From: Chitinivorax tropicus
GTDB taxonomy: Bacteria > Pseudomonadota > Gammaproteobacteria > Burkholderiales > SCOH01
Reading direction: 5' to 3'
Assembly: GCF_014202905.1 (NCBI RefSeq)
Contig: NZ_JACHHY010000005.1
Span: forward strand, 1 to 64,000
Length of the DNA: 64,000 nucleotides
Positions within the stretch are counted from its first letter, which is position 1, and each line of letters begins with the position of its first letter. The position numbers and the translations under genes are program-made. Of the stretch, positions 34,994-49,670 are shown piece after piece. The notes beneath the pieces are model-generated. The model had not been told where the DNA came from. It searched no databases and saw only the letters and a list, made by a program, of their open reading frames with translations.

Positions 34994-36058
34994 TCAGTTG
35001 TCTTCGCCATCCCACCAGCCGGTTGTCCAGCTGCCGCGTGGGCCGGTGCCGACTTTGTAATCATTGAGCAGCTTGGTGTACTTCATGATCGCCTGCCCGA
35101 CAGCTTCCATATGGTCATCATTGACATGGGGAATATTGCGTGATGGCATCTTCACATTGGTGTTGTCCATATTGAGCAGGCCCCAGCGACCGGTGTAATT
35201 GGTGATCGGGTGGTCGTTCAGCAGTTGGACGACATTTTGGGTGTCCCAGCTGATGCCGCCATCGTCGGTGACATCCACCACTTTCAATTCGCGTAGCCCA
35301 GCCGGGGTGACACCGCTGCTCGCCCAGCTCCAGTCAGAGTCGATCACTGTGGCATAGCTGAAGATATCTGAGCTGGGGTGGGTGCCGTGCGCATTCTGGG
35401 CGATATAGATCTTCGGACGGTTGCCATTCCAGCTGATGTCTTTGGGTGCATGGCGCGACTGCTTGCCGTGGGCATTGGTATAGACATCGGTCACCTCGCC
35501 GGTTTTGGCATTGATACGGACGCTGGCGTGTTCCCAGTCGCCTTCGTGGCGGCCAAAGTTGCACCAGGCGAAGTTGGTCTTGGTTGAGCTGTCCCAGACC
35601 CATTTATAGGTGAACGCACGGAACATCTCGCAGTCGTTGTAGGCGAACAGCATCGTGTACTGTACCTCGCGATAGTCGGTGCCGTTCTTGTTGTAGCGGA
35701 CGACGTGCGCATATAGCGGGGCTTGGGCGCTATAGGACACGTTGCGGGCATTGTCGTCGAGATCGAGGTAGTCGTCGCTGTTGGTGGCGAGGTGAGCAAA
35801 CTGATCAGGCGATTGCGGGTAGGATCTGAGAATATTGCCATTTTTGTCCTTCAGGACGGAATGCTTATAGAAGTACTCAATGCTGGTCGGAAAGTGTTTT
35901 TCTTCCGGGTGGAACTGCATGATGGGCGCCAGCTGCTTGGCCAGTTGCACATCGCTGAGATTCGGATCGACCTTGGCGGCCTGGCCCAGGCTTGGCAATA
36001 CCATCAGGGCGGCCAGGGTTGTCATGCGAAGAGGGGTGTGCTTGGCTGTGAAGTCCAT
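34994..36058 (-). CDS. Exported Vps62/DUF946-related protein
   Basis: The 354-residue protein begins with a Sec signal (about 1-27, ending S-L-G-Q-A-A). The rest resembles the Vps62/DUF946 family known from fungi and plants: Q-F-H-P-E-E-K-H-F-P-T-S-I-E-Y-F-Y, N-F-G-R-H-E-G-D-W-E-H-A-S-V, N-A-H-G-T-H-P-S-S and a tryptophan-rich tail. The histidine- and aspartate-rich motifs suggest metal binding or hydrolysis, but no activity is established that I know of. ATG 36058 is chosen as the start of the signal; the ribosome-binding site is weak. It lies downstream of an operon terminator, so is probably separate. Confidence 0.7.
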   Translation of the reverse strand: MDFTAKHTPLRMTTLAALMVLPSLGQAAKVDPNLSDVQLAKQLAPIMQFHPEEKHFPTSIEYFYKHSVLKDKNGNILRSYPQSPDQFAHLATNSDDYLDLDDNARNVSYSAQAPLYAHVVRYNKNGTDYREVQYTMLFAYNDCEMFRAFTYKWVWDSSTKTNFAWCNFGRHEGDWEHASVRINAKTGEVTDVYTNAHGKQSRHAPKDISWNGNRPKIYIAQNAHGTHPSSDIFSYATVIDSDWSWASSGVTPAGLRELKVVDVTDDGGISWDTQNVVQLLNDHPITNYTGRWGLLNMDNTNVKMPSRNIPHVNDDHMEAVGQAIMKYTKLLNDYKVGTGPRGSWTTGWWDGEDN

Positions 36059-36180
36059 ATTGTTTGTCTCGTTCTCGATAAGATGATTGAGCCTGCGCTG
36101 TCTGACAGGTTGAGAGCGAGTGTAGTGGCGATGTTTGCAACAATTTGGCAGCAAAATGACAAACATTGTGCAATGGTGCA

Positions 36181-36222
36181 AAAAACAAGGCCGGCACTGT
36201 CTGGTTGACAGGGTGCCGGCCT
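36181..36222 (-). terminator. Terminator of the chemoreceptor-porin-binding protein operon
   Basis: On the minus strand AGGCCGGCAC, 15-base loop, GTGCCGGCCT, then TTGTTTTTTG. It starts 18 bp past the stop at 36240. Confidence 0.9.
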
Positions 36223-36239
36223 GTGGGCGAGCAACAGGG

Positions 36240-36659
36240 CTATTGCGACAGCACCACCTTCACGCTGCTGTCCACCGCTCCTTTATCGATATATCCGATC
36301 ATGTTGGGGTTGTCGGCAATCAACTTTTTCACTGCGCCGTCATTGCCGATTTCCTTTGGTGGCTGGCCCTTGCCTGAAAAGATCAGCTTGGACCAATAGG
36401 CTTTGACCTGGGCTGCAGATTTGCCGGTCACCTTGGTGTAGAACTCCTCACGCGGCCCAGCCCCTTCTGATTGATCGACAGGCACCGCCTGGCCGCCACC
36501 GGGAAAGCTGTTCGATTTGCCAAGGAAAATCTGCGACACCTGATCGGCTGTCAAATTGCCAGCACTGCTTTTGGCGCTGACGATCACGGCGATGTCGGCC
36601 TTGGCCAGGGGGGCCAGTAGCAGCATGATGAGGGTGGCACGGACTAATGGGGTTTTCAT
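36240..36659 (-). CDS. Small PstS-like phosphate-binding-family protein
   Basis: The 139-residue protein has a Sec signal (about 1-21, M-K-T-P-L-V-R-A-T-L-I-M-L-L-L) and one domain resembling part of phosphate-binding proteins of ABC transporters: L-T-A-D-Q-V-S-Q-I-F-L-G-K, then P-V-D-Q-S-E-G-A-G-P-R-E-E-F-Y-T-K-V, and a C-terminal D-N-P-N-M-I-G-Y-I-D-K. Full PstS proteins have about 350 residues, so it is a mini version likely to bind a small anion or to act as a sensor partner. It is 13 bp after a porin gene and downstream of a chemoreceptor, with no permease nearby. Confidence 0.75.
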   Translation of the reverse strand: MKTPLVRATLIMLLLAPLAKADIAVIVSAKSSAGNLTADQVSQIFLGKSNSFPGGGQAVPVDQSEGAGPREEFYTKVTGKSAAQVKAYWSKLIFSGKGQPPKEIGNDGAVKKLIADNPNMIGYIDKGAVDSSVKVVLSQ

Positions 36660-36672
36660 GGGTGTCTCCCTT

Positions 36673-38154
36673 TCAGAACACGAAATCGACGGCCAGGCTG
36701 AACAGATTGATCTTCTTGCCTGGGTCGAAACCCACTTGATTGTTGTTCAGCGTATAGCCAGCCCCTTTGTTGTCGATTTTCAATTGATCCCACTGCATTT
36801 TGACATCCATGTTCTTCATCACATCCCAACGGACGCCCAATGTGATGTTTCGTTGCGCGGTGGAGCCGGCAAACAGCAATACATTGAGCCCTCCGTTCAA
36901 CAAGCCCAGTGATTGGTTGATCTGCGGAACCCCGCCATTCACCTGATCAATACCCGCTTGCAAGGCGGCCAGCTGCGGAATGGCAGGCAGGTTGCTGATG
37001 GCTGGGGCGCTGATCGGGCTGGCACCGTTGGAGGTGAGCTCGCTATCGGTCTTGATCCGAGAGTAGGTGGCATAAGGGGTGAATTTACCGACCCGCACGC
37101 CGCCGGACAGGTACCACGCAGTGGTATCCGCGACCAGGGAATCATTGGTGCGCTTGGTGTATTCAGCCTGGATGAACCAGCCACCTGGGTCGTAAAGCGC
37201 GCCAAAGCCCACAAAGGAGGCGGGTACGTTGTCCGCTTCATAGCGCTCGACGATGCTGCGCACGGACTGAGCTGTGGCTGTCGCATCAGCGGCTGCAGCC
37301 GCTGCGCTGGTGGCGGTGTTGCTCAGGGCTGTCAATATCGGGGCTGGCAGCGGCTGCTGACCGGCTGACTGTGCACCAGCGGCAACCTGTGCGGCGCCTG
37401 CGGCGAGTTTATCCACACCATTGGCCAGTGCGCGATAACTGTTGAAAAACGTGTTGGTGGCAGGGCCTTGGTAGGTGAAGCGAGTACGGACATAGCCCGC
37501 ACGCAAGGTCAGAGAGCCGATTTCAGAGGTGACATTCAAGCCAAGTGTCCTCCGGCCCTCGGACTCGTTCATGCCCGCCGAGGTAGGAATTTTATTCTTG
37601 GTGCGACCGCCATAGGCCTGGAAGGTGGTGGAAACGTCGCCAGTATTGAGCCGATACACTGCATCTGCACCATCGAGATGTGAGAATGGCACCTGGAAAT
37701 AGACCTCTGTCGGCGGGCGGACCCACGGGTTGGCATAGCCGACCTTCCGGTAATCCGACACCATATAGACGGGCAAGGCCATCCTGCCCGCGTGGAATGC
37801 AAGATCAGATGTGGCCTGGATCTTGGCATTGGCCCACTCCAGCGTGGGTTTGAAGGTCTTATCATAACGTCGCTCAGAGATCACCTGGATGGTGCCCGAC
37901 AGTATGTCATTTGCCTTCATGTCCGCTTGCAAGCCCAGCTTGCTGTCCACGCCGAAATCGTATTTGTGCGAGTAGCCCGCACCATTGGGCTGGTTCAGCC
38001 CGGTGCGGTAATCAGCCAGGTCGGTACTGGAGTGCACAACGCCCACTGTGCCAAACCCTCGTAACTTGAAGGCGTCACTGCCATCCGCCCATACCTGGCT
38101 GGTCAAGGCTACCAGCGCAGATCCGACCGCAGCTACCATCAGGCGCTGTTTCAT
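36673..38154 (-). CDS. Outer-membrane porin-like protein with two Ala/Gly-rich inserts
   Basis: The 493-residue protein has a signal peptide (1-23, ending V-W-A), many alternating beta strands and a terminal F-V-F, typical of trimeric or monomeric porins. Two unusual inserts replace short loops: residues about 241-310, with K-L-A-A-G-A-A-Q-V-A-A-G-A-Q and a run of six Ala, and about 376-430, rich in Pro, Ala, Leu and Gly. Such heptad-like stretches suggest helices, unusual in a porin loop. CAGGAGG precedes ATG 38154. It lies between a chemoreceptor and a small binding protein. Confidence 0.75.
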   Translation of the reverse strand: MKQRLMVAAVGSALVALTSQVWADGSDAFKLRGFGTVGVVHSSTDLADYRTGLNQPNGAGYSHKYDFGVDSKLGLQADMKANDILSGTIQVISERRYDKTFKPTLEWANAKIQATSDLAFHAGRMALPVYMVSDYRKVGYANPWVRPPTEVYFQVPFSHLDGADAVYRLNTGDVSTTFQAYGGRTKNKIPTSAGMNESEGRRTLGLNVTSEIGSLTLRAGYVRTRFTYQGPATNTFFNSYRALANGVDKLAAGAAQVAAGAQSAGQQPLPAPILTALSNTATSAAAAAADATATAQSVRSIVERYEADNVPASFVGFGALYDPGGWFIQAEYTKRTNDSLVADTTAWYLSGGVRVGKFTPYATYSRIKTDSELTSNGASPISAPAISNLPAIPQLAALQAGIDQVNGGVPQINQSLGLLNGGLNVLLFAGSTAQRNITLGVRWDVMKNMDVKMQWDQLKIDNKGAGYTLNNNQVGFDPGKKINLFSLAVDFVF

Positions 38155-38240
38155 ATCTTGTCCTCCTGAAGCTGTTTTGAATATGCCCGACTGCCCGACG
38201 ACCGATGGGCGGGTCAAGACAACGGTTTTGCCAACAGAAC

Positions 38241-39851
38241 CTAGGTTTTGAAATGCCCCGAAACCTCACGCAGATTTTCAGTGAGTTGCTTGATGGTGCT
38301 GCTGATCTTTGCCAGCTTCTTGCCCTGATCCTCCGTCGCAGCCGAGATCCGATGCAGATCGTCCATTTGCGTGCCGATCTGCCCCGACGCCTGCTGTTGT
38401 TGATCAGTTGCCTGGGCAATGGTCTGATTCATCCGGCTGATGGTGCCGACCTTGTCTGAGATTTCCTGCAAGGTCTGTCCTGATCCGGTCACTTGCTCCA
38501 CGGTGGCTTCCGCTTCGCGTTGGCTGGCCAGGATCACGTCAACGACCGATGCGGTCGTGGCCTGCAGTTGCGATACGATTTCAAAGATCTGGCTGGTGGA
38601 GTCACGGGTGCGGGCGGCCATGCTGCGCACTTCATCCGCCACCACGGCAAAGCCACGCCCATGTTCACCGGCCCGTGCGGCCTCGATGGCGGCATTGAGG
38701 GCCAGCAGATTGGTTTGCGACGAGATCCCCTTGATGACATCGACCACCACATTGATCTGCTGGCTATCTGATTCCAGCTTCTTCAGTGTTGTCGAGGCTT
38801 CATTGACCTGCTGTGCCAGCTCGTTGATACGGGTGATGGTGGTGCGGATGTTGGTGAGCCCATTCGCCGCCGAGGCGTTGGCCACAGCTGCCGCATCAGA
38901 TGCAGATGCCGCGCTGATTGCCACGCTGTCGATCTGCTGGGCAATGCCCTCGACTTGTGCCGCCACCCGCCCGATCACCTGTTTCTCGGTGGTGATGCTG
39001 CTGTCGGTGTTGCTGGCGATCAGGCTCATCTCGTCTGTGGTTTCGCTCAATGCGTTGACCGATTCGACAACGTGACGGATATCGCCATGTAGTCGTTCGA
39101 TGAACGTGTTGAACCATTTCACCAATTCACCGATTTCATCGCGGGTATATTGGCGGATACGCAAAGTCAGATCACCCTCGCCCTGGGCGATGTCACGCAG
39201 CGATCGCACCACCAGATCGACGTTCCGCTTGATCGAGAAGGACACCACCAGGCTGAACAACACGCCGCCCCCAATGGCGGCCAGGGCGCCGATCACCCCA
39301 ACGAACAGCGCTCGCTGTTGTGATGCTGTGGTTTCCTCGACTGTCTCGGTGAAACGCTTATAACTGGTATCGCGGAAGGCGGTCAGGTGGGTTCGATAGG
39401 TGGTGAGCAGGTCGCCCATGCTCTTGATGGCGGCTGGATCGGGGGCCTGTCCCGCCAGCATGCCGGCAGAGAGCTTCGCGGCTGCATCGTAGTAGGCATT
39501 GAACTCCGACACCAATTTATCTGGCTCGTTTCCGGCCATCGTATCGGCCTGCTTGATCTTGTCGAGATTGGCACGCACTCGCTTCGCCTGCTCGTCCACC
39601 GCCTGCAATGCTTCTTTTTCGCCCGCCGCCACAGCGGAGTTCAGCGAGCCGATGATGTTGTCGAGCAGGGCCACATTGTTGTTGGCCGCCTCCAGTGTTG
39701 GAAACAGATCGTTCTGGATGATTTTGAGCCGGTGTGTGTTGGCGCTGGAGACCGAAAAGTTATAGGCGACATAGATGACGAGGAAAACAGCGGCAATGGA
39801 TTGGGAGAGCAGTATCTTCTGACGCAGTGACAGTACTGAAAGTAACTTCAT
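38241..39851 (-). CDS. Methyl-accepting chemotaxis protein
   Basis: The 536-residue chemoreceptor has membrane segments near 12-32 and 188-212, a four-helix periplasmic sensor between them, HAMP (about 213-265), and the signalling hairpin tip [17 protein letters not shown] (about 400-416). The C-terminus lacks the N-W-E-T-F receptor pentapeptide. The ligand is unknown. The gene starts an apparent operon with a porin (86-bp gap) and a PstS-like protein, which suggests it senses what the two envelope proteins import or bind; this is inference. Confidence 0.93.
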
Positions 39852-40089
39852 CGTTGTGTTCCGGTCGAGGTGGGACGGTCAAGTTGAGCTGCCAGTTACT
39901 TTTATAGTCTGTTGTTGGGGCCATGCGCTAATTCTATGTAGGCATTGGGCGCGGTCTGGTCAAGTAAATTACTGAGTAATAACATTAATCCAATCTGATT
40001 TAGATATATGTTGAAACAAAAGTCTGATATAGGCATACTGCATGGTAGGTTAATGCCATTCTGGTTGGTATGTTATATGGCGGCTCTCG

Positions 40090-45832: not shown

Positions 45833-46606
45833 TCAGCCAAACTTACCGGTGATGTAATCTTCCGTTGCCTTCTTCTTCGGCTTGGTGAAGATCTCATTGG
45901 TATCGCCATACTCGATCAACTCACCCAGGTACATATACGCGGTGTAGTCAGATACACGAGCCGCCTGTTGCATATTGTGGGTCACGATCACGATGGTGTA
46001 ATCGTTCTTCAACTCGTGGATCAACTCTTCGATATGGGCGGTCGAGATCGGGTCCAGCGCAGAGGTCGGCTCGTCCAGCAGCAGAACTTCAGGCTTCACC
46101 GCAATCGCGCGGGCAATGCACAGCCGCTGCTGCTGGCCACCAGACAAGCCATTGCCGCTTTGCTTCAGCTTGTCTTTGACCTCATCCCACAGCGCGGCTT
46201 TCCGCAGGGCCCACTCAATACGGTCATCCATGTCGCTCTTGCTGAGCTTTTCATAGAGCTTCACGCCAAATGCAATATTGTCGTAGATCGACATCGGAAA
46301 GGGCGTGGGCTTTTGAAACACCATGCCGATCCGGGCGCGCAGCAAGTTCAGGTCTACACCCTTGTCCAGAATGTTCTGACCATGCAGCATGATCTCGCCC
46401 TCTGCCCGTAATTTGGGGTAAAGCTCATACATCCGGTTGAGGGTTCTCAACAAAGTGGATTTACCACAACCAGATGGGCCGATGAACGCGGTCACTCGTT
46501 GTGTTTCGATGTCGAGGTTGATGTTCTTCAGCGCATGGAAATTGCCGTAGTAGAAATTGAGATTCCGGATGGACAATTTCACGGTGCTGAGCGTTTGCTG
46601 GGTCAT
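45833..46606 (-). CDS. pstB: Phosphate ABC transporter ATP-binding protein
   Basis: PstB powers phosphate import. The 257-residue protein (same length as E. coli PstB from this start) has Walker A G-P-S-G-C-G-K-S, signature L-S-G-G-Q-Q-Q-R and Walker [16 protein letters not shown] 46606 is used; ATG 46624 and TTG 46633 are in frame. Last gene of pstSCAB. Confidence 0.96.
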
Positions 46607-46633
46607 GACGAATTCTCTACGCATGATGATCAA

Positions 46634-47476
46634 TCAATTGGATTTTTGTCTAAATAGCGAACGGGCCAGAATATTCAGAGCCAATACGCTGACGGTAATC
46701 AACAGGGCGCCGCCCCAGGCCAGTTTCTGCCAATCTTCGTAGGGACTCATCGCAAATTGGAAGATCACCACCGGCAAATTGGCCATTGGCGCATTCATGT
46801 TCATGCTCCAGAACTGATTGTTCAGTGCAGTGAACAGTAACGGTGCTGTCTCGCCGCTGATGCGGGCCACAGCCAGCAGAATGCCAGTCAGAATCCCTGC
46901 TCGTGAGGCCTTCAGCGTAACAAAGGTGATCACCTTCCACTGTGGCGCACCCAGCGCAGCGGCAGCTTCACGCAGACTGTTGGGAACCAGGCGCAGCATG
47001 TTCTCGGTGGTGCGCACCACAACGGGAATCACAATCAGGCTCAGTGCCAATGCACCCGCCCAACCCGAGAAGTGCTTTACCTTCGCCACATAGATCGTAT
47101 AGACGAACAGGCCGATGACGATGGATGGCGCGGACAGCAAAATGTCATTGATGAATCGGGTGGTAGGGGCCAGCCAGCCTCGTTCACCGAATTCAGCCAG
47201 GTAGGTGCCGGCCAGAATGCCGATCGGCGTACCGATCAGCGTGCCGAACAGTGCCATGAGCAAGCTGCCGAAGATCGCGTTCAACAGCCCCCCGGCTGAG
47301 CCTGGTGGGGGTGTCATTTGCGTGAACATGGCGATGGAGATGGCATCAAAGCCATGTTGGAACAGCGTGATGAGAATCCACGCCAGCCAGAACAACCCAA
47401 ACCCCATGGTCAGAACCGACATGACGATGTTGAACGAGTTGATGAAACGGCGCTTCGCGTAAATAGTCTTATTCAT
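46634..47476 (-). CDS. pstA: Phosphate ABC transporter permease PstA
   Basis: The 280-residue inner-membrane permease has about six hydrophobic segments and the binding-protein-dependent transport loop around [11 protein letters not shown] (EAA motif). It forms the channel with PstC. ATG 47476 is used; an in-frame GTG at 47485 follows directly after the pstC stop. It sits between pstC and pstB. Confidence 0.95.
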
Positions 47477-47485
47477 AATGGGCAC

Positions 47486-48490
47486 TCAGCTCGACTGGCC
47501 TTCACGTTTTTGCAGCTGTATCAGCAATACCTTGGAAAGCGCCAGCACGATAAAGGTGATGACAAACAAGATCAGACCCAGCGTAATCAATGAGCTGGTG
47601 TACAGCTCACCCGTGGCTTCGGTGAACTCGTTGGCCAACGATGACGCAATACTGTTGCCAGGCATGAACAACGAGACGTTGAATTCATGGGCATTGCCGA
47701 TCAGGAAGGTGACAGCCATGGTTTCACCCAGCGCACGACCCAGCCCCAGCATGATGCCACCGATCACCCCAGCCTTGGTGTATGGCAAGACCACACTGCG
47801 CATCACCTCCCAAGTGGTGCCACCCAGCCCATAGGCCGATTCCTTTAACATGGGCGGGACGATTTCAAACACATCTCGCATCACCGAAGCAATGAACGGG
47901 ATCACCATGATGGCTAAAATCAGCCCGGCGGTGAACATACCAATCCCCATCGGCGGGCCGCTGAACAAGGAACCGATGATAGGGATCGGGCCGATGTGCT
48001 CATTCATCCATGGCTGGATGTGTTTAGCAAACCAGGGAGCAAAGATAAACAACCCCCACATGCCATAAATGATGGATGGGATGCCGGCCAACAACTCGAT
48101 TGCCGTCCCTAGCGGGCGGCGCATCCACATCGGCGCCAGCTCGGTCAGGAACATGGCGATGCCAAAGCTGACCGGGATGCCAACCAGCAACGCGATGGCA
48201 GAGGTCACCAAGGTGCCATAGATCGGGATCAGCGCACCGAAGCTTTCCTGAACCGGGTCCCAATCCATGGTGACCAGAAACTTCGCGCCAAAATGCTTGA
48301 TCGCAGGTAGCGACCCTTCGATGAGCGACAAGATGATGCCCGCCAACAGCGCGAGCACAACGAACGCAAACACGCGCGTGACATTGCGAAAGATCGCATC
48401 GTATAGGCGTCCGGAATGGGTTCGCCCGGTCAATTGATGATGCTTGGGGGGCGGATTGAGCAAGGCAGGGGCTGCAGGAGCAGATTGCAT
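47486..48490 (-). CDS. pstC: Phosphate ABC transporter permease PstC
   Basis: The 334-residue permease has a long N-terminal tail, six hydrophobic segments and the EAA-type motif [11 protein letters not shown]. With PstA it forms the phosphate channel in the inner membrane. pstA begins almost directly after its stop. A perfect hairpin lies between it and pstS upstream. Confidence 0.96.
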
Positions 48491-48523
48491 TGAAAGCCTC
48501 GATTGCTACGGTTCAAACAGCAC

Positions 48524-48547
48524 GGAAGGGGCCGTCTGGCCCCTTCC
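48524..48547 (-). other. Perfect intercistronic hairpin between pstS and pstC
   Basis: GGAAGGGGCC and its complement GGCCCCTTCC around a four-base loop, about 80 bp after pstS. It lacks a T-run, so may stabilise pstS RNA or partly stop transcription, giving more PstS than PstC, A and B. Confidence 0.65.
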
Positions 48548-48626
48548 ATACGACTTCAACGAATCTCAACACGATGGCCATTAAGTTTTAACAGCACTGT
48601 AACATGTGTGAGTAAGTTTCTGTAAA

Positions 48627-49670
48627 TCAGTAGATTGCTTTGCCACTAGCGTCTTTGACCTGTGCTTTCCACGCGCTACGAACCAGCTTGACCACATTGT
48701 CCGGCAGCGGAATGTAATCAAGCTGCAGCGCAGTCTGGTCGCCTTGGTCGTATGCCCAGTCAAAGAACTTCAAGACATCCTTACCACTCTCGGCTTTCTC
48801 CTGAGACTTATGGATCAGGATGAAAGTCGCACCAGTGATCGGCCAGCTCTGCTTGCCCGGCTCATTGGTGAGGATTTCATAGAAGCCAGGCGCCTTCTCC
48901 CAGTCAGCATGAGATGCTGCTGCTTTGAAACTGTCCTCGCTCGGAGCGACAAACTGACCATCCTTATTCTGCAACTGGGTGAACGCCATCTTATTCTGCA
49001 GAGCATAAGCATACTCCACATAACCAATCGAACCCGCCGTCAGCTTCACATAGTTGGCTACACCCTCATTACCCTTGCCACCAATGCCAGTTGGCCACTT
49101 GACCGATGCCTCCTCACCAACTTTTTCCTTCCACTCAGCGCTTACCTTGGACAGATAATTGGTAAAGATGAACGTTGTGCCAGAACCATCAGAACGGCGA
49201 ACGACCGTGATCCCTTGATCCGGAAGACTCAAGCCTTGATTCAAGCTGGCGATACGGCTGTCGTTCCACTTGGTGATCTTGCCAAGAAAGATGTCGGCCA
49301 GCACAGCGGGCGTCAACTTCAACTGGCCAGGCTGCACACCTTGCAGATTAATAACCGGCACCACGCCACCCATTACAGTGGGGAACTGCATTAAACCTGC
49401 TTCTTCCAATTCCTTCGGTGTCAAAGGCTTGTCGGATGCGCCGAAATCAACAGTTTTTGCCTTGATCTGCTTGATGCCACCACCGGAACCGATGGATTGA
49501 TAATTCAAGCCAACACCGGTTTTGGCCTTGTAGGCTTCAGCCCATTTCGCATAGAGCGGATAAGGGAAAGTCGCGCCAGCACCCGTGATATCTGCAGCAG
49601 ATGCAAAAGGAGCATAAAAAGCTGTTGCGCAGAAAGTAACCACAAGGCTGCGGGCAAAAATGGCTTTCAT
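48627..49670 (-). CDS. pstS: Phosphate-binding periplasmic protein PstS
   Basis: The 347-residue protein has a Sec signal (1-25, ending A-S-A) followed by the mature start A-D-I-T-G-A-G-A-T-F-P-Y-P, and the phosphate-contacting segments S-I-G-S-G-G-G-I-K-Q-I, D-F-G-A-S-D and R-R-S-D-G-S-G-T-T-F. It captures phosphate for PstCAB. Two Pho-box-like repeats precede it. Confidence 0.97.
   Translation of the reverse strand: MKAIFARSLVVTFCATAFYAPFASAADITGAGATFPYPLYAKWAEAYKAKTGVGLNYQSIGSGGGIKQIKAKTVDFGASDKPLTPKELEEAGLMQFPTVMGGVVPVINLQGVQPGQLKLTPAVLADIFLGKITKWNDSRIASLNQGLSLPDQGITVVRRSDGSGTTFIFTNYLSKVSAEWKEKVGEEASVKWPTGIGGKGNEGVANYVKLTAGSIGYVEYAYALQNKMAFTQLQNKDGQFVAPSEDSFKAAASHADWEKAPGFYEILTNEPGKQSWPITGATFILIHKSQEKAESGKDVLKFFDWAYDQGDQTALQLDYIPLPDNVVKLVRSAWKAQVKDASGKAIY

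Follow-up and report, generated by a model that had tools for sequence, protein, structure and literature searches.

Gene grouping of a chemoreceptor, a porin and a single-lobe PstS-like protein in Chitinivorax tropicus and its relatives: a candidate envelope sensing unit

In the NspS–MbaA and ScrB–ScrC systems of Vibrio, a periplasmic binding protein acts together with a GGDEF-EAL transducer; these binding proteins are two-lobed, and no porin is known to take part. In the YfiBNR (TpbB) system, a small periplasmic protein stands between an outer-membrane protein and a membrane-bound diguanylate cyclase, with YfiR and YfiB belonging to other folds. In Pseudomonas aeruginosa, inorganic phosphate-loaded PstS binds and stimulates CtpL in phosphate taxis (PMC4926252), and chemoreceptors, sensor kinases, and diguanylate cyclases/phosphodiesterases activated by binding proteins have been described (PMC9602780). 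Here we report on three adjacent genes of Chitinivorax tropicus that encode a methyl-accepting chemotaxis protein (MCP), a porin and a secreted PstS-like protein of 139 residues, which we call the mini-PBP. The trio lies in a stretch of 64,000 nucleotides (contig NZ_JACHHY010000005.1, positions 1 to 64,000), hereafter the window. We describe its parts, their linkage, the sensor domain, the swapping of outputs, the single-lobe model of the mini-PBP and the phosphate ligands of PstS that its family has lost. The new element lies in three parts that, from gene linkage, appear to travel together: a binding protein of half the usual size, a dedicated porin and a sensor domain that is not classified.

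The trio shares with NspS–MbaA and ScrB–ScrC the pairing of a binding protein with a transducer and differs from them by its single lobe and its porin, while the YfiBNR layout, compared by description only, resembles that of the trio with different YfiR and YfiB folds. As in PstS–CtpL, a PstS-fold periplasmic protein is paired with an MCP, and binding-protein input is the logic that we propose for the trio. However, CtpL works with the complete PstS that belongs to the transporter, and the available part of PMC4926252 mentions no porin, whereas the trio has one lobe only, in which the phosphate ligands are missing, and a porin encoded alongside. Beyond an MCP as in CtpL, the porin and mini-PBP pair adjoins MCP, GGDEF/EAL or kinase genes, which are the kinds of receptor covered by PMC9602780; the main text of that source contains no occurrence of "porin", "truncated" or "single domain". 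The mini-PBP and receptor genes are linked, a feature expected of binding-protein-stimulated receptors. A first, sequence-only reading of the window was not aware of any system of this form. Among the matches listed from the open-access literature searched, the trio was indeed not recognized, but its general principle has precedents in the binding-protein-stimulated receptors of the two papers.

Recurrence of the porin and mini-PBP pair beside signalling genes

Conservation of the gene order had been set as a test of the unit, and the grouping recurs in the genus, in the family, on P. aeruginosa plasmids and in other bacteria, with the MCP gene first or last. Matches to the mini-PBP were found in 13 of 60 related genomes. 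A TetR gene beside MCP–porin–mini-PBP is kept in a genome of the same genus (G001) and in one of the same family (G003), where the arrangement is MCP–porin–PBP–porin–PBP. In two further genomes of the family (G002 and G004), the porin–mini-PBP pair lies at a contig end, so that an adjacent MCP gene is not visible there; both hold additional copies elsewhere, which in G002 include MCP–PBP–porin and PBP–kinase–porin. The genome of C. tropicus itself has a second copy (L028 8238–10597, contig C5 at approximately 128.2–130.6 kb), in which a secreted fusion of SBP_bac_3 and mini-PBP is followed by another member of the porin family.

For a more distant search, the mini-PBP alignment was compared with one genome per species (84,980), which gave 421 relatives, and the best 80 were kept as loci. 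From these best 80 of 421 and 20 earlier stretches, all chosen by the mini-PBP alone, together with the window, 98 units were classified. L048, L049 and L056 (duplicates) and L045, L065 and L095 (no unit called) were omitted before counting, whereas two L037 units with spurious N-terminal frames were counted nonetheless. Domain labels came from profiles built on the fetched loci, with a Pfam check for selected genes only. A porin was present in 90 of the 98 mini-PBP units. The distance from the porin stop to the PBP start was 10–15 nt in 51 of 89 pairs and lay between a 1-nt overlap and 9 nt in 22 (the 89 spacings take in the duplicates and the window).

Genes for signalling proteins (MCP, GGDEF/EAL or histidine kinase) directly adjoin 68 units; the partner is an MCP in 19, a GGDEF/EAL protein in 47 and a histidine kinase in 2, leaving 30 with none. 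Such genes accounted for 68 of the 190 immediate flanks versus 23 of the 608 more distant genes (odds ratio 14, Fisher test, uncorrected for relatedness). A signalling flank occurred in 57 of 75 named loci, and at least one was present in 29 of 35 genera or records. The loci belong mostly to Beta- or Gammaproteobacteria, with outlying examples in Geothrix (Acidobacteriota; without a signalling flank) and in a Sulfuricurvum metagenome-assembled genome (Campylobacterota; GGDEF flank). Two P. aeruginosa plasmids carry MCP–porin–mini-PBP in the same order as the window. The MCP gene comes first in L098, L101, L109, L127, L137, L138, L147 and L148, last in L050–L053, L059, L100, L146, L149 and L150, and on the opposite strand in L055 and L135. 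Taken together, the grouping as one unit is well supported by gene linkage.

Several loci showed additional features. A TetR gene lies upstream of the MCP gene in the two P. aeruginosa plasmids (L131 and L132) and in L098, comparable to the TetR gene beside the window unit, and L132 has RND efflux genes downstream as well. On an Alteromonas mediterranea plasmid (L130 4971–6548), the mini-PBP gene comes first and is followed by a gene for 386 residues, beside type IV CRISPR csf genes. An SBP_bac_3 gene, confirmed by Pfam in this locus only, is directly upstream of the porin and mini-PBP genes in L094 (8017–8799); genes for 246–262 residues, putatively of the same kind, are found 5′ of the porin gene in L061, L066, L075, L085, L091, L102, L112 and L126, which, like L094, have no labelled signalling neighbour. 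Apparent porin–PBP fusions in L006, L024 and L027 were rejected, the upstream frames being spurious and each mini-PBP having its own signal peptide. In L060, the porin and mini-PBP share one frame, but the barrel is shortened, and we read this as decay or an assembly fault. Because the trio occurs on Pseudomonas plasmids, McpT of Pseudomonas putida plasmids was considered; mcpT-2 of pTTS12 is located in a Tn3 element, according to the available part of PMC9537497, nothing connects it to the trio, and it was dropped.

The sensor region of the MCP and its outputs

The MCP consists of an N-terminal region (residues 1–206), a HAMP domain (206–255) and an MCP signalling domain (318–501). Two transmembrane segments, assigned by eye, flank a helical periplasmic domain at about residues 33–182 of the N-terminal region. 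This sensor region had no convincing Pfam match; in its family, weak matches to TarH (0.0073), HBM (0.047) and DAHL (0.0058) each concerned one of 11 members and never that of the window. A sensor profile compared with the PDB up to an E value of 10 matched a variety of helical proteins, among them designed ones and coiled coils, and no chemoreceptor. The window MCP found no match in plasmids at an E value of 1e-40. Since the genome holds three matches to the CheA dimerization domain (PF02895), a signalling pathway for the MCP is possible.

To follow the sensor region independently of the mini-PBP, a profile (A6) was made from the first 206 residues of the window MCP and ten relatives (11 rows, all from units) and searched in 232 genomes sampled evenly from the class. 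Sensor matches were found in 25 of them, the mini-PBP in 60 and the porin family in 34, the last by scoring at most seven candidates per genome, so that misses are possible. Of 31 sensor rows, 30 were counted, since a broken sensor gene in G131 gave a second fragment, which was left out; for 20 of the 30, a mini-PBP or porin gene is no more than 3 kb away (19 of 29 without the window). The mini-PBP was held by 22 of the 25 sensor genomes compared with 60 of 232 overall (hypergeometric probability 5e-12, uncorrected for relatedness), and 44 of 52 porin matches were within 1 kb of a mini-PBP gene. In the fetched loci, all 17 strong sensor matches adjoin a unit; ten are rows of the profile, and the independent part is thus seven of seven, among which L055 and L056 are near-copies. 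MCPs without the sensor domain were mostly at least two genes away from the unit.

Beside units, the sensor region is fused not only to MCPs but also to GGDEF (L136), HisKA (L140 and L145, the latter with its ATPase part in a separate frame) and Hpt or Hpt/HATPase domains (L070 and L110). Away from units, it occurs with Hpt/HATPase (L139), in a HisKA hybrid (L142) and with GGDEF-EAL (L143 and L144). In Massilia and Pseudomonas loci, the GGDEF-EAL proteins that are common as partners differ from the helical-sensor type. In a rapidly built tree of the porins from 75 units (26 MCP, 44 GGDEF/EAL and 5 kinase), parsimony gave 13 output changes against a shuffled mean of 26.1, so outputs remain clustered; the starred branches alone force six changes for GGDEF/EAL and five for MCP. 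The deep part of this tree is unsure owing to long branches, and the MCP labels of L039, L106 and L111 may reflect chance neighbours. The trio thus looks like a portable sensing device whose output, judged from gene content, is exchanged between the control of swimming, c-di-GMP signalling and kinase pathways.

A further arrangement was seen in L110 (10529–15045) and L139 (2634–7215), where a CheA-like Hpt/HATPase gene with the sensor region precedes a short MCP-signal gene, after which come two more genes, the second of these with a CheX domain. It is possibly a membrane-bound chemosensory pathway.

The mini-PBP, the porin and their locus

The mini-PBP begins with a signal peptide of about residues 1–21, assigned by eye, and scores 27.3 bits against PF12849 (PBP_like_2), barely over the gathering cut-off of 27; against TIGR02136 (PstS) the score is also 27.3 bits, far under the curated cut-off of 206.6. 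Its AlphaFold2 model is confident (pLDDT 92.6), and residues 21–139 match one PstS domain (4q8r 79–192; Z 15.1, root-mean-square deviation 1.9, 106 aligned). By this model, the mini-PBP corresponds to lobe 2 of PstS alone, without room for the other lobe, and the two-lobed cleft of PstS is not present in these 139 residues, of which only one domain aligns. A profile comparison (hhalign) of the mini-PBP with the window's PstS covered 23 columns only, at 14% probability; the kinship with PstS therefore draws on the PF12849 match and the one-domain structural matches of the model, among others. Across 40 sequences, F73, A87, W89, F94, G96, P101 and Y123 are invariant.

In an alignment by eye, the PstS motif, RRSDGSGT in the window's own PstS, corresponds to approximately D-Q-x-E-G-S-[AP]-x-R in the mini-PBP family. 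The Arg and Ser-Gly-Thr of PstS domain 2, which we take to be phosphate ligands, are kept in none of the 40 sequences, either as Arg at position 63 or as S-G-T at 67–69. This makes a phosphate clamshell unlikely, and phosphate is probably not bound by the mini-PBP as it is by PstS; ligand capture in the manner of PstS, as a reading of the earlier proposal, is doubtful in view of both this motif and the single lobe. The mini-PBP may have another ligand or a protein-only role.

The porin (493 residues) had no Pfam family match up to an E value of 0.1. Its AlphaFold2 model contains 16 strands (pLDDT 85.7) and was matched by Foldseek to the general 16-strand porins OmpU, Omp32 and OmpF. The predicted barrel is that of this group (OmpU/OmpT, Omp32 and OmpF/OmpC), from which the porin differs by low identity (6–15% among the matches listed), a conserved L3 motif of its own and helical insertions. 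By the usual topology, which also serves to predict the outward-facing loops, residues 127–158 would form the constriction loop L3; they contain a family motif around D134, G139, Y140, W144, R146, P148, E150 and Y152, and mean conservation is 0.64 in the putative L3 versus 0.50 in the strands. This conserved motif is the one feature that suggests that the porin may admit the ligand. The helical insertions, residues 231–305 (window 37240–37464) and 393–430 (window 36865–36978), correspond to gaps in most of the relatives aligned (with gap fractions of 0.74 and 0.63 on average) and would be placed outside the cell, in predicted outer loops. They are alanine-rich or Leu/Gly-rich, with a weak xxxLxxG heptad match in the first.

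The features of the locus are listed in Table 1. Transcription on the minus strand would run from the MCP gene through the porin and mini-PBP genes to a strong hairpin terminator at about 36186–36224, followed by TTGTTTTTT. An 81-nt stretch folds at −31.3 kcal/mol (z −4.3), with none of 200 shuffles equally stable. A simple consensus scan missed this hairpin and found no excess of promoter- or terminator-like sites in the region over shuffled sequence. The sequence-only reading was right in describing three same-strand genes that end at one strong terminator, the open reading frames being where it had placed them, and a PstS-like protein of 139 residues with a signal peptide. That there is no permease holds for the trio itself, which includes no partner ABC permease or ATPase, but the reading had passed over a complete pstSCAB operon, with its own full-length PstS, at 45833–49670, on the same strand and 6–10 kb off.

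Table 1. Coordinates in the window of the trio and its flanking signals
Feature	Position	Strand	Evidence
MCP, 536 aa	38241..39851	-	Open reading frame list; HAMP and MCPsignal over Pfam cut-offs
Porin, 493 aa	36673..38154	-	Open reading frame list; AlphaFold2 model with 16 strands
Mini-PBP, 139 aa, PstS-like, predicted to be secreted	36240..36659	-	PF12849 match
Intrinsic terminator, hairpin and T-tract	36180..36224	-	15 nt past the mini-PBP stop; folding energy
Intergenic region between MCP and divergent TetR genes	39852..40089	.	TTGAC(C/T)AG in three related genomes

The porin and mini-PBP genes are 13 nt apart and are likely co-transcribed on the basis of this spacing. Co-transcription of the MCP gene with the porin gene across their 86-nt gap is plausible: the consensus scan lists no minus-strand promoter-like or terminator-like site in the gap, which is approximately 150 nt in G001 and 145 nt in G003 by our own gene caller. 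For the porin, an ATG at 38154 behind AGGAGG was preferred as the start over a TTG at 38217, and the porin of G001 starts likewise. The TTGAC(C/T)AG sequence conserved in three related genomes is a possible −35 element for the MCP gene. Upstream of the MCP gene lie a divergent TetR gene and efflux genes, of RND type by eye, and this plus-strand block separates the trio from pstSCAB. Past the terminator is a gene for a Vps62-domain protein (34994–36058; PF06101, 52 bits) with a signal peptide by eye.

A candidate sensing unit and competing explanations

As the sensor region follows the porin and mini-PBP even when searched on its own, we consider a sensing unit the best reading, and we lean towards the trio being a dedicated envelope sensing unit in which the porin lets a solute in, the mini-PBP is the intermediary and the MCP is the sensor. 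In such a unit, the 16-strand porin with its conserved constriction loop would let a particular class of small solute into the periplasm, where the secreted single-lobe PstS relative would bind it, possibly in dimeric form or against a partner protein, and dock to the MCP at its helical sensor domain. The MCP would relay the signal via HAMP to CheA and thereby steer swimming; in other bacteria, the pair would be wired to c-di-GMP enzymes or kinases. The binding steps, the direction of signalling and the stimulus are all what we infer here, and phosphate in the PstS mode is not expected as the stimulus. The layout first proposed for the locus is therefore right in outline: as a conserved unit it has, through linkage and the sensor search, firmer support than the sequence alone could give, while its capture of a ligand is doubtful.

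Several observations weigh against a sensing unit. No labelled signalling gene neighbours 30 of the 98 units, although two of these (L070 and L110) do adjoin genes for kinase-like proteins with the sensor domain, and in the loci of Pseudomonas, the gene for the GGDEF-EAL protein is on the opposite strand and faces the unit. Ten of the 30 sensor matches lie away from any unit, and three of the 25 sensor genomes have no mini-PBP. The MCPs adjoining the unit in L039, L106 and L111, which may be chance neighbours, lack this sensor domain, and four of five GGDEF-type partners scanned gave a dCache_1 match below the cut-off instead of the helical domain. The mini-PBP itself has neither a second lobe nor the phosphate ligands of PstS.

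A bolder and more tentative form of the sensing unit is a portable trans-envelope cassette in which the porin is part of the receptor: the porin and the half-binding protein would report passage or pore state to the helical sensor, and the outputs would be exchanged among chemotaxis, c-di-GMP, two-component and CheA-like signalling. Somewhat less probable still is that the mini-PBP binds no free solute and sits between the periplasmic face of the porin and the sensor domain, where it would report porin occupancy, assembly or abundance or, in a YfiBNR-like manner, repress the transducer until the porin removes it. The greater constancy of the porin and mini-PBP pair than of the sensor type, and a single lobe without phosphate ligands, would suit such a relay, but the conserved L3 motif suggests selection on passage through the pore.

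We regard as improbable that the mini-PBP serves taxis as an additional phosphate receptor, in the way that PstS serves CtpL. It has the fold of PstS domain 2, lies near pstSCAB, and has relatives in plasmid records that are annotated as phosphate ABC transporter substrate-binding proteins; however, the S-G-T and Arg missing throughout its family are present in the window's PstS, and in a comparison of the 100 fetched loci, L065 was the only one to show close matches to pstS, pstC and pstA. Least credible is a nutrient-uptake pair with incidental signalling genes, which would account for the units without a labelled signalling neighbour but not for the enrichment of such neighbours, the sensor search in 232 genomes and the repeated pairing with different outputs.

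If the sensing unit is real, small proteins with the annotation "phosphate ABC transporter substrate-binding" and their adjacent porins would have to be reinterpreted as components of a signalling cassette, and orphan MCPs, GGDEF-EAL proteins and kinases would gain candidate inputs. The participation of porins in sensing would become testable, and the mini-PBP would represent a binding-protein fold that was cut to one lobe and reused in signalling.

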